The position numbers were made by a program, and so were the translations under genes. This document shows, one piece after another, positions 8,506-12,049 of a stretch of 40,153 nucleotides of DNA. This stretch comes from Myxococcales bacterium (GTDB lineage: Bacteria > Myxococcota_A > Polyangia > Fen-1088). Below the pieces are notes generated by a model. That model did no database searches. It saw only the letters and a program-made list of their open reading frames with translations, and had not been told where the DNA came from. Within the stretch, counting starts at the first letter, position 1. Each line of letters opens with the position of its first letter. The stretch is from contig JANXXE010000005.1 of assembly GCA_025350815.1 (NCBI GenBank), forward strand, positions 1-40,153. Reading direction: 5' to 3'.

Positions 8506-10197
8506 ATGACACAAGACATTGTCACCAGGTCCTGGGGTCCCGCTCTGGTGGTGCTGTGCCTCGCCGCCTGCACCGGAAATATAGATTCAAGCCCCGTGAC
8601 GGCGGGCGATCTGGCCAGGCCCAGCGGGACAGGTGGCTCCGCCGGCGCGGGCGCTGCGTCCGATACCGCCGGCGCCGGCCCCGCAGCGCCGCAGTCGGAC
8701 TTCACTACCAGCGCGGAGCTTCGTCGTCTCACGCGCGTGGAATACACCAATACGGTTTTCGATCTACTGGGCGTGGATCTAAGCGCCGAGGACCGCCCGA
8801 AAGAATTGCTTGTACAGGGCCACAGCGAAATTGCCGGCGCCCAGAAGATTGGCTACGAAGACACCAGCCAGTACTTGGGCCTGGCCGACAAGGTTGCCAC
8901 CGCCGCGGCCGCCAAGATCGATGCCGACATGAAATGCGTGGATGCCGCGTGCGGCCGGGCCTGGACCGAGGCCTTCTTGTTGCGGGCGTTTCGTGAACCA
9001 CCGACGCCAACCATTATTGACAGGTACGCCGCCATCCTTGGCGCCGCAGATGCGGGAGGAACCTCGGTCGAACGTGTCACAGCGCTGTTGGCCGCCGTCC
9101 TGACGTCGCCGCATTTCCTGTACCGCAAGGAACTGGGCGCCGCCGTAGTATCCGGCAATCCCGGGGTGCGGACGCTAAATGCGTACCAGGTGGCGTCCCG
9201 CCTTTCGTATTTGGTGTGGCAATCCATGCCGGACGCCCAATTGTTCGCCGCGGCCGACAAAAGGACCTTGCTGGATCCCGCGACCCGCAAGGTCGAACTT
9301 GAACGCATGTTGAAGGACAAACGCGCGCAGAATGGCTTGCGCGCCTTCGTCGCCGACTGGATGGGGCTGTTCGACAACAATCTGGGCAAGAAGTCGGCGA
9401 CGGTCTTGATGGGCACGCCGCCCGACCTGCCACAACAGGCGGCACGATCCTTTGATTTGCTGGTGGACGACGTACTGACGACGCGCACGCCCTCGCGCTT
9501 TTCTGATTTGCTGAAGACAAACCAGATTTACGCCAATGCCGCCCTGGCAACCGTTCTGGGCGTCAACGCGGCCGGTTCCGCCTTGCAGAAAGTCACACTG
9601 CCCGCCGGCGACAGGCTGGGAATCCTCACGCATCCGATGGTGATCGGCGCGCACAGCAAGGAAAGTGGCGCCTCGCCCTTCCCGATTGGCAAGTTCATCT
9701 ACGAGAATCTTCTGTGCGAGGTCATCCCGCCGCCGCCGGCCAGCGTTCCCAAGATCGACGACAGCGCCGCGGCCGTCACCACCTTGCGGCAAAAGCTTGA
9801 ATCACTGACCAAGGACCAACCCTGCGCCTCGTGCCACGTCCGCATCGGTCCACCTGGATTTGCTTTCCTGCCCTTCGATCCCATCGGGCGCTTCAAGAAC
9901 AGCGACGCCCGCGGGCAGGCCTACGACACAGCAGGTGTACTGGTTCTCGGCGGCGTCGCTGCAGTCCCGTTCAGCGGGGCCGCGGATCTCAGCGCGAAGC
10001 TGGCCGCGCGGCCCGAGGCCCTTGGCTGCATTTCGCGGCGCATGTTCCGTTGGGCTTATGGCCGTTTCGAGGCGGGCGCCGATACAGCGGCCCTGTCGGC
10101 CGTTGAAAATGCCGCCGTGACAACTGGCGCCGGTGTTGTCGAGATCTTGCAACAAATCGTCGCGGACCCCGCGTTTGCCCAAATGCGCGGCCGTTGA
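8506..10197 (+). CDS. DUF1592-family lipoprotein with one CxxCH motif
   Basis: A 563-residue exported protein. The signal ends in a lipobox (LAAC, Cys22), followed by a Gly/Ala/Thr-rich linker to about residue 65. The body follows the Planctomycete-type multidomain order: DUF1587-like (LRRLTRVEYTNTVFDLLG, about 75-92), DUF1595-like, DUF1592 (SPHFLYRKE through FVADWMGLFD), DUF1588 (GDRLGILTHP through GFAFLPFDPIGRF) and DUF1585-like at the C-terminus. CASCH at 440-444 is a possible heme c site inside the DUF1588 region. The molecular function of this family is unknown. A DUF1552 gene follows after 15 bases, the usual partner arrangement in Planctomycetes and Myxococcota. SD-like AGGGCGAC precedes the ATG. 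Confidence 0.9.
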   Translation: MTQDIVTRSWGPALVVLCLAACTGNIDSSPVTAGDLARPSGTGGSAGAGAASDTAGAGPAAPQSDFTTSAELRRLTRVEYTNTVFDLLGVDLSAEDRPKELLVQGHSEIAGAQKIGYEDTSQYLGLADKVATAAAAKIDADMKCVDAACGRAWTEAFLLRAFREPPTPTIIDRYAAILGAADAGGTSVERVTALLAAVLTSPHFLYRKELGAAVVSGNPGVRTLNAYQVASRLSYLVWQSMPDAQLFAAADKRTLLDPATRKVELERMLKDKRAQNGLRAFVADWMGLFDNNLGKKSATVLMGTPPDLPQQAARSFDLLVDDVLTTRTPSRFSDLLKTNQIYANAALATVLGVNAAGSALQKVTLPAGDRLGILTHPMVIGAHSKESGASPFPIGKFIYENLLCEVIPPPPASVPKIDDSAAAVTTLRQKLESLTKDQPCASCHVRIGPPGFAFLPFDPIGRFKNSDARGQAYDTAGVLVLGGVAAVPFSGAADLSAKLAARPEALGCISRRMFRWAYGRFEAGADTAALSAVENAAVTTGAGVVEILQQIVADPAFAQMRGR

Positions 10198-10212
10198 AGA
10201 AAGGATGATGAC

Positions 10213-11628
10213 ATGATCCTCCAATCGCGACGCCAGTTAATCCAGCAAGCAGGCGCCTGGTCCCTGCTGTGGCCGCTGGTTCAACACGGGCTTGCACGCG
10301 CGGCGGGTGCGACAGTACCAAAACGTGTGGTCATCATCTTCAGCCCCAACGGCCCCATCATGGAACGCGGACCCGCCGCCGGCACCGAGACCGCGTTTGC
10401 GGTCAACGAGTTCTGGTCGCCCCTGGCCAGACACCAGGCGGACGCGTTTTTCTTCACCGGTTGCCACCAGGCGGGGGTGCCCTTCGGCAAACACAACGAA
10501 TACGGGCACCAATCGGCCGGCACCGGCGCCCTGACCGCGCGCACCACCGAGGGAACCAACAACTCGACAGGTCCTTCGCTTGATCAATTCATCGGCCAGG
10601 AACTACAAAAGAAGGGGATTGTCACCCCCAAGCGTTCGTTGCTGATGGGTCTGCACAAGAACGTCGGCAACTGGGGTCCCTGGTACGAGACTGCAGGCAA
10701 ACCCGCCCTGCCGATGATCGATCCCTACAAGATCCTGGCAGATATCTTGCCCCAGGTGTCGGCGGCCGCGGGCGGCAACAAGACGCCGCTGGTGGATAGG
10801 GTGCTGCTGCGAAAGAACTTCGTCCTTGACGCGGTATACAAGGATTGCGTCGAATTGGCGGGCGGCCTGGGCGCGGACGCCAAGGCCCTGCTTGATTTTC
10901 ATTGCGGCAATATCGAGGCGTTACAAAAAAGCGTCGCCAAATCACTGGTAAGCCCCGTGTCCGTCGCCAATCCGGGGTGCGTGGAGACGACCAAACCCAA
11001 CACGACCTTGGCCGCCACTGCGAATTTCGAACAGGCGGACAACCGCGACGAAATCATGAAGGCGTTTACAGATCTGGTCGCCCTGTCCTTCAGCTGCGAC
11101 ATCACGCGGGTCATCGGCGTTTCTTTTGGCGACACGTCAGCGCGTTTCGCCATCCCCGCAAAGTACGGCGTCCCGAGTGCGGCACAGGTCGATAGCGGGG
11201 ATTCGGGCCCGCAGCACCACGCCTGGACCCACACCTACAACATGAGCCCCGAAAAACGGGGGGCCATAAAATCGTTTTACAACTGGTATGCCGAAAAGGT
11301 CGCCCTGCTGATCGACAAGCTGAAGTCGACCATGGACGCCAACGCTAAGCCCCTGATGGACAGCACCCTGGTGCTGTGGACCTCGGAACTCGGCGGCGAG
11401 GTCAACGTCCTGGAGCCTCACCCCAACTTCAACATTCCCGTGGTGCTATTCGGCAGCAGCCAGGGCGCCTTCAAGCCTGGCCGCCTGTACGCCACCAAGG
11501 ATCCGCAGCAAAAGTCGGCCCTGGTGCTGCATTCCCTGTTTGTTTCCCTGATACAGCATGCCGGCCTGACGGAGATCGACACTTTCGGCAACCAGGGCAC
11601 GGGGGGCCTGGACTGGCTGCGAGGGTGA
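10213..11628 (+). CDS. DUF1552-family protein with Tat-like signal
   Basis: A 471-residue protein that starts with a twin-arginine-like signal (SRRQLIQQAGAW, Arg6-Arg7) and a short hydrophobic stretch ending near ARA at about residue 31. The rest matches the DUF1552 family, distantly related to DUF1501/sulfatase-like folds: KRVVIIFSPNGPIME, HNEYGHQSAGTGALT, HAWTHTYNM and LWTSELGGE are recognisable. The family function is unknown; it nearly always sits beside a DUF1592 gene, as here. AAAGGA precedes the ATG. Tat export suggests folding or cofactor insertion in the cytoplasm, which is inference. Confidence 0.88.
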   Translation: MILQSRRQLIQQAGAWSLLWPLVQHGLARAAGATVPKRVVIIFSPNGPIMERGPAAGTETAFAVNEFWSPLARHQADAFFFTGCHQAGVPFGKHNEYGHQSAGTGALTARTTEGTNNSTGPSLDQFIGQELQKKGIVTPKRSLLMGLHKNVGNWGPWYETAGKPALPMIDPYKILADILPQVSAAAGGNKTPLVDRVLLRKNFVLDAVYKDCVELAGGLGADAKALLDFHCGNIEALQKSVAKSLVSPVSVANPGCVETTKPNTTLAATANFEQADNRDEIMKAFTDLVALSFSCDITRVIGVSFGDTSARFAIPAKYGVPSAAQVDSGDSGPQHHAWTHTYNMSPEKRGAIKSFYNWYAEKVALLIDKLKSTMDANAKPLMDSTLVLWTSELGGEVNVLEPHPNFNIPVVLFGSSQGAFKPGRLYATKDPQQKSALVLHSLFVSLIQHAGLTEIDTFGNQGTGGLDWLRG

Positions 11629-11645
11629 ACGATCCAAGACCCGTG

Positions 11646-11674
11646 TTGTTCTTGCCATCCATCGCCGCTATGCT
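11646..11674 (+). promoter_or_regulatory. Weak candidate promoter before the Cys-rich secreted protein gene
   Basis: TTGTTC (11646-11651) and TATGCT (11669-11674) are separated by 17 bases, in the 70-base gap after the DUF1552 gene. Each hexamer matches the sigma-70 consensus only partly. Read-through from the upstream pair is equally possible. Confidence 0.2.
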
Positions 11675-11698
11675 GACCGGTCTCAAGGAGACTCACAC

Positions 11699-12049
11699 AT
11701 GACCAAGACCCTGCTGACCGCGCTCTTCTGTGCCTTCGTTGCTCTCACCGTTGGCGTCAACACCAGCCACGCCGCCGACAAGAAGGAGGCACCCGCCGCC
11801 AAGGAAGTCACCGTCAAGGGGACGATGATGTGCGCCAAGTGCAGCCTGAAGGAGACGACGGCCTGCCAGAACGTCCTGAAGGCCAGCGAGGGCGGCAAGG
11901 ATGTGAAGTACTACCTGGTGCAGAACCCCGTCGCCAAGGACGGCCACGGCAAGGTCTGCGGGGGCACCGCCGCCGCCACCGTCAAGGGCACCGTCGCCGA
12001 AGAAGGTGGCAAGAAGATGCTGACCGCGTCCGAGATCAAGTACGAGTAG
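11699..12049 (+). CDS. Small secreted Cys-motif protein (DUF6370-like)
   Basis: A 116-residue protein with a Sec signal peptide (cleavage near SHAA, residue 26) and a Lys/Ala-rich linker. The mature part has TVKGTMMCAKCSLKETTACQ (C45, C48, C56), a YYLVQN strand, and KVCGG (C87) before a second VKGTV. The CxxC plus two more Cys could bind a metal or form disulfides. The pattern resembles the small DUF6370-type proteins of Planctomycetes and Myxococcota, recognised from memory rather than by search. AAGGAG lies eight bases upstream of the ATG. The 3' end overlaps the convergent ybeY gene by 14 bases. Function unknown. Confidence 0.72.
   Translation: MTKTLLTALFCAFVALTVGVNTSHAADKKEAPAAKEVTVKGTMMCAKCSLKETTACQNVLKASEGGKDVKYYLVQNPVAKDGHGKVCGGTAAATVKGTVAEEGGKKMLTASEIKYE

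Follow-up and report, generated by a model that had tools for sequence, protein, structure and literature searches.

The window analysed here is a stretch of 40,153 nucleotides from a Myxococcales bacterium (GenBank assembly GCA_025350815.1, contig JANXXE010000005.1, positions 1 to 40,153 of the forward strand). It contains three open reading frames (ORFs) lying head to tail on the plus strand with gaps of 15 and 70 bases (Table 1), which encode a lipoprotein-type protein with five Pfam domains, among them DUF1592 (gene 1), a DUF1552 protein with a twin-arginine N-terminus (gene 2) and a small secreted protein (gene 3). The initial annotation had placed the genes at these positions as one secreted three-gene unit, and the ORFs, their strand and their gaps agree with the arrangement it described. 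We observed that genes 1 and 2 form a two-gene module, the pairs being kept and diverging as units, and that gene 3, which Pfam assigns to DUF6370, an identity absent from that annotation, lacks a conserved link to the pair. The proteins of the three genes had no match in NCBIfam, and a sequence search of the PDB returned nothing relevant for DUF1552, DUF1592 or DUF6370.

Table 1. Features of the three-gene locus, in positions of the window
Feature	Position	Strand	Basis
Gene 1: DUF1587-DUF1595-DUF1592-DUF1588-DUF1585 lipoprotein, 563 aa	8506..10197	+	Pfam, all five above cut-off
Gene 1 Pfam domains in the order PSD3-PSD5-PSD4-PSCyt3-PSD2			E 1.3e-11, 3.8e-13, 1.8e-25, 2.6e-23, 1.6e-10
Gene 1: lipobox-type Cys22 (LAAC-TGNI)	8569..8571	+	Sequence; column nearly invariant in 20-sequence alignment A3
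Gene 1: CASCH haem-c-type motif, residues 440-444, within DUF1588	9823..9837	+	Sequence, Pfam
Gene 2: DUF1552 (HXXSHH) protein, twin-arginine N-terminus, 471 aa	10213..11628	+	Pfam E 2.8e-36; 126 bits against a cut-off of 30
Gene 2: twin-arginine Arg6-Arg7 of the export signal (SRR)	10228..10233	+	RR in 23/24 DUF1552 copies
Gene 2: HAWTH (His336-His340), the HxxSHH motif as it reads in the window	11218..11232	+	His336 23/24, His340 24/24
Gap of 70 bases separating gene 2 from gene 3	11629..11698	+	Consensus scan: no promoter-like or terminator-like match
Gene 3: secreted DUF6370 protein, 116 aa	11699..12049	+	Pfam E 1.1e-7; 32.3 bits against a cut-off of 25

Pairing of DUF1592 and DUF1552 genes

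In the genome that holds the window (4.5 Mb in 226 contigs, 97.7% complete) we found 24 matches to DUF1552 and 25 to DUF1592, and each of the 24 DUF1552 genes adjoins a DUF1592 gene of its own, confirming the earlier proposal that the two make a genuine pair. All pairs but one (23/24) are co-directional with the DUF1592 gene upstream, and 14 of these 23 overlap by 4 bases, with paralogue starts chosen by a simple script. The two families also come and go together between genomes: among 18 family genomes both are present in eight and neither in ten, the copy numbers of DUF1552 and DUF1592 in the eight being 24/25, 34/36, 37/26, 47/42, 12/13, 9/10, 9/9 and 37/40. Among 27 genomes that carry DUF6370, 24 hold both families and the same three lack each of them, so that the 45 genomes searched for both families divide into 32 with both and 13 with neither. 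Furthermore, the distance matrices of the two partners within the genome are correlated (Mantel r 0.914; none of 20000 permutations as high). In the conservation, pairing-distance and flank-profile analyses the DUF1592 protein of the window was cut to residues 158-563.

The pair in the window is a divergent member of this set, its nearest DUF1552 paralogue (C41) being only 36% identical, and no close relative of its DUF1552 protein was found at E 1e-60 in the family genomes outside its own. We found no constant third neighbour. In 99 of 117 script-called ORFs around the pairs (18 were left out, including the window's own nine) the commonest Pfam family in one batch (A14, 57 ORFs) was that of sigma-70 factors, with 4 occurrences, and among the 25 listed of 66 families none occurred in more than 1 of the 42 ORFs of the other (A15). 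With neighbours as mixed as these, a conserved third partner of the pairs was rejected.

A similar pairing is already in print. PSCyt3 genes are reported usually to adjoin one family of unknown genes (PMC5615132), which we take, from the text, to be DUF1552; in freshwater Verrucomicrobia sulfatase genes often lie near PSCyt genes (PMC5615132), and Rhodopirellula is listed as having a secreted DUF1552 protein (PMC2754498). The PSCyt/PSD proteins of Verrucomicrobia and Planctomycetes described there belong to the same domain families as gene 1, whereas here each protein is of the lipoprotein type, the count takes in all 24 pairs of a genome and we propose a fold for DUF1552. A literature search, covering papers open without subscription and without their supplements, showed, among the entries and passages listed, neither a function for the pair nor a fold for DUF1552, and no paper containing the names HXXSHH or DUF6370.

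Another two-gene pair with a Tat-signal partner and without an assigned function, DUF1800-DUF1501 (PMC5122149), consists of different Pfam families. The profile of DUF1552 matched two DUF1501 sequences weakly, at a probability of 63% over 121 columns with A13 and of 32% over 77 columns with A2, compared with 0.2% for DUF1592 as a control, and DUF1800 was touched by 2 of 20 DUF1592 proteins (best E 0.029).

Export signals, haem motif and predicted fold

The export signals pointed out in the initial annotation, of the lipoprotein type in gene 1 and of the twin-arginine translocation (Tat) type in gene 2, are present and conserved across the copies in the genome. For gene 1 the lipobox column was read from an alignment of 20 DUF1592 sequences, four of the 24 copies being left out. 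The haem-type motif is likewise conserved: the Cys and the His of its CH dipeptide are found in all 24 DUF1592 copies, the window included, and every copy has a second Cys, in the spacing CxxCH in 21 and CxxxCH in three. These three copies (C157:19576, C157:24883 and C121:40907; L027, L030) have a spacing unusual for a c-type haem site. Gene 1 thus has CxxCH on an exported, lipobox-type protein in a genome with cytochrome c assembly machinery (three PF01578 matches over the cut-off), as expected of a c-type cytochrome, and we infer from its sequence that it carries one c-type haem on CASCH.

Published descriptions led us to read the X132 module of Cellvibrio Cbp2D and of Teredinibacter TERTU_2913 and TERTU_3803 as probably the same five-domain module as gene 1. 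Like gene 1, these proteins have a DUF1587-type start and a single CxxCH and are exported (the DUF1687 printed in one legend is in our reading an error for DUF1587, the name given in the other paper). These papers expect haem on the CxxCH of X132 and know of no homologue that has been characterised (PMC10916295, PMC8981238). In contrast to the X132 proteins, gene 1 stands alone, has no carbohydrate-binding module (CBM), X158 or FN3 domain visible to Pfam and is paired with DUF1552.

Alternatively, CxxCH could be structural and free of haem, gene 1 serving only as membrane anchor and chaperone for DUF1552. The three CxxxCH copies would fit such a role, as would the fact that a His which 18 of the 24 copies have six residues ahead of CxxCH is missing from gene 1 of the window. 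We nevertheless consider it doubtful, given that the CH dipeptide is invariant and the second Cys always there, that the genome has cytochrome c assembly genes and that haem is expected on the CxxCH of X132 (PMC10916295).

Gene 2 would be exported folded via the Tat system, judging from its N-terminus; the single DUF1552 copy in which the twin arginines are missing has a start picked by the simple script. Six residues conserved in at least 23 of the 24 copies are kept in the window (His99, Asp124, His336, His340, Asp383 and His403), but they could not be matched to a known site. A structure of DUF1552 was predicted from 25 sequences (the window, L036 and 23 viral proteins), with a predicted TM-score (pTM) of 0.79 and a mean predicted local distance difference test (pLDDT) score of 69.4. 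Its best match by VIA-align had Z 16.9 over 283 residues at a root-mean-square deviation of 4.5, and the titles of the 50 listed rows (Z 15.0-16.9) name sulfatases, nucleotide pyrophosphatases/phosphodiesterases, phosphoethanolamine transferases (EptC, MCR-1) or YejM, apart from one that gives no family. Among the matches listed by Foldseek (best E 2.3e-5) most are sulfatases, together with phosphonate monoester hydrolases and one entry titled alkaline phosphatase superfamily. Sulfatases, nucleotide pyrophosphatases/phosphodiesterases, phosphoethanolamine transferases and YejM-type proteins form one superfamily, suggesting that DUF1552 has the fold of the alkaline phosphatase/sulfatase superfamily. 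This likeness is one of predicted fold; PDB chains of the alkaline phosphatase superfamily gave no sequence match to DUF1552.

The DUF6370 gene downstream

The initial annotation saw in all three genes one extracytoplasmic redox- or metal-linked unit; in such a unit the DUF6370 protein might deliver metal or electrons to the pair. For genes 1 and 2 a redox-linked role outside the cytoplasm is reasonable, the CxxCH of X132 being expected to bind haem (PMC10916295); the extension to gene 3 did not hold up. Only 3 of the 18 family genomes have DUF6370, the relatives in G003 and G013 passing the curated Pfam cut-off like gene 3 itself, and in G013 (76% complete) neither DUF1552 nor DUF1592 was found, nor does any of seven genomes of its genus (g5) have either. 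The count from a profile search of 377 genomes of the phylum is at least one (the window's own copy) and is a lower bound, because the genome search with PF19897 missed this copy, which hmmscan matches.

A wider search by pattern and tblastn, with one genome per species (84,980 genomes), gave 34 DUF6370 loci, all labelled Planctomycetota or Verrucomicrobiota except L036 (Proteobacteria). We searched their flanks, in all 170 kb upstream and 189 kb downstream, each at most 8 kb and often shorter, with DUF1552 and DUF1592 profiles built from the 24 copies of the genome of the window. DUF1592 was found at none of the 34 loci and DUF1552 at one (L036, about 4 kb off). Most carriers do have the pair families, both of which are present in 24 of the 27 carrier genomes searched (out of 34 loci). 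In Planctomycetota DUF6370 adjoins other genes instead: one conserved gene follows it by 4-145 bases in 13 of the 34 loci (L037, L039, L040, L043, L046, L055-L060, L063 and L065) and matched ATP-grasp_3 in the three of these 13 that were scanned, and a second, nearby on the opposite strand in eight of the 34 loci, matched Fae (formaldehyde-activating enzyme) in the two scanned. The G+C content at third codon positions also separates gene 3 (0.91) from the pair (0.75 and 0.78).

We therefore rejected the three-gene unit and regard it as very improbable, even though the genes lie head to tail and the 70 bases ahead of gene 3 match no promoter or terminator consensus, DUF6370 has a conserved CxxC followed by Cys, His and Cys, its homologue in G003 lies about 4 kb from a DUF1552 gene and its surroundings in G013 are in line with a metal role. 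Gene 3 is most likely not part of the unit.

As for gene 3 itself, the columns of Cys45, Cys48, Cys56, His83 and Cys87 are invariant in 34 DUF6370 sequences, His83 becoming only nearly invariant once L013 is added (as in alignment A5; alignment A8, the input for structure prediction, was made without L013 and L049). The predicted model (pLDDT 81.8; at least 90 in 79 of 116 residues) forms a barrel of five strands with a helix inserted between the third and the fourth, and its strand order fits the oligonucleotide/oligosaccharide-binding (OB) fold. Foldseek matched it to PriB, RPA and the OB domains of tRNA synthetases (best E 7e-4), while VIA-align gave a Z of only 8.2, near the level which the tool calls common. 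Gene 3 is thus predicted to encode a small secreted protein of the OB fold, in which four Cys are conserved, and is probably metal-binding; the family (PF19897) has no assigned function, and its neighbours vary by genome. Two such neighbourhoods are of interest in their own right: the ATP-grasp and Fae genes of Planctomycetota indicate a possible link to one-carbon metabolism, and the G013 locus (L017:1472-9857), where genes for Nramp, TonB, a TonB-dependent receptor and NikR surround DUF6370, suggests a metal context.

A proposed explanation and DUF1552 in viruses

We propose that the locus consists of a pair, in which a Tat-exported DUF1552 protein with an alkaline phosphatase-type fold works with an anchored c-haem lipoprotein, followed by an unrelated gene 3; this is a tentative reading, to which we give somewhat less than an even chance. 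Gene 2, exported folded by Tat, would most likely be a metal-dependent hydrolase (or a binding protein) for esters of the phosphate, sulfate or a related type, and the ester group might be carried by an envelope or extracellular polymer. Gene 1 would be anchored to the membrane as a lipoprotein with one c-type haem on CASCH and would hold gene 2 at the surface and/or pass electrons. The 24 pairs have diverged as units, and because the genome keeps that many, each pair probably serves a different substrate. Gene 3 would happen to lie downstream. Tat export, haem, substrate class, the division of labour between the partners and the specialisation of the pairs are all parts that we infer.

It would also be conceivable that the pair supplies redox equivalents for polysaccharide oxidation in the manner of Cbp2D, the haem lipoprotein passing electrons to an oxidase resembling a lytic polysaccharide monooxygenase (LPMO), with DUF1552 as an accessory. 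Growth on insoluble cellulose depends on Cbp2D, the protein that has the X132 module with its single CxxCH (PMC12542752), and the X183 domain of Cbp2D is able to reduce LPMOs (PMC8981238); some PSCyt proteins have carbohydrate-binding modules (PMC5615132). We consider this unlikely here: an AA10 LPMO had no match in the genome, in a search that was positive in 1 of 14 controls (Lactococcus), Pfam gave no second cytochrome domain in gene 1 that could be X183 (X183 itself was not searched for) and the X183 domains of Teredinibacter failed to reduce their LPMO (PMC10916295). An LPMO partner in this genome was rejected for want of an AA10 match.

The DUF1552 family also reaches into viruses. DUF1552 genes turned up in uncultivated viral contigs each time these were scanned with DUF1552 queries (four scans, with 5, 2, 10 and 30 loci, overlapping), whereas three scans with DUF1592 queries found no match. 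The 39 loci L077-L115 (several on the same contig) all have a DUF1552 gene, and in L095, L078, L083, L090, L096 and relatives these genes have twin-arginine starts and lie among phage genes: a T4-type terminase and tail sheath in L095, AmtB and PhoH in L090, a tubulin-type gene in L096, SbcC/SbcD-like genes in L078 and ribonucleotide reductase with a helicase in L083. From these neighbours we take L095, L078 and L083, at the least, to be phage genomes. Another viral neighbour (L090:2767-3747) had no Pfam match, and the idea that it encodes a phosphate permease was dropped. In PHROGs the three viral DUF1552 proteins scanned matched no family, and among 50,697 phage records neither a viral DUF1552 query nor DUF1592 found a match. 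Viral DUF1552 is a possible unrecognised phage auxiliary gene. On one viral contig (L113:3483-6281) a DUF1501 gene lies directly upstream of the DUF1552 gene.

Several observations weigh against the reading of the locus as a haem-linked, alkaline phosphatase-type pair. As to the fold, the Foldseek TM-scores normalised by query are 0.30-0.39 among the listed rows and the mean pLDDT is 69, and because both are low the active site is unreadable from the model. Alkaline phosphatase-type enzymes usually have a metal-ligand Asp where strand 1 ends; in a hand reading of DUF1552, Asn46 takes this place and the position expected of the nucleophile is roughly that of His99. DUF1552 could be a binding protein. 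As to the pairing, the nearest neighbours of the two partners agree in only 14 of the 24 pairs, and the pair of C41, nearest to the window by DUF1552, does not supply any of the three closest DUF1592 paralogues (31-32%), which belong to other pairs; the Mantel test, moreover, cannot separate co-evolving partners from a pair duplicated as a unit, and it is no proof of contact. DUF1552 can also occur without an adjoining DUF1592, because a copy in G003 (L016:4034-5488, G003:C179), the one near DUF6370, stands in 11.4 kb of searched sequence (L036) that gave no match to DUF1592, and none of the 39 viral loci had such a match in the flanks searched. For the haem, the His missing upstream of CASCH counts in the same direction, and since the genome has no AA10 LPMO, the LPMO role of Cbp2D does not carry over to gene 1.

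A bolder version of our proposal sees the pairs as a toolkit of haem-linked enzymes of the alkaline phosphatase fold, expanded to dozens per genome so that each substrate has its own pair, much as glycans have their SusC/D pairs, and DUF1552 as captured by large aquatic T4-like phages as an auxiliary gene; we think it rather unlikely as a whole. Such pairs, present in dozens of copies in some genomes, have had no known function. We believe that the strict partner rule in combination with the predicted fold of DUF1552 turns this double unknown into a concrete test, for haem on one partner and for esterase activity on the other, and that setting DUF6370 apart from the pair will spare effort on a false three-gene operon.

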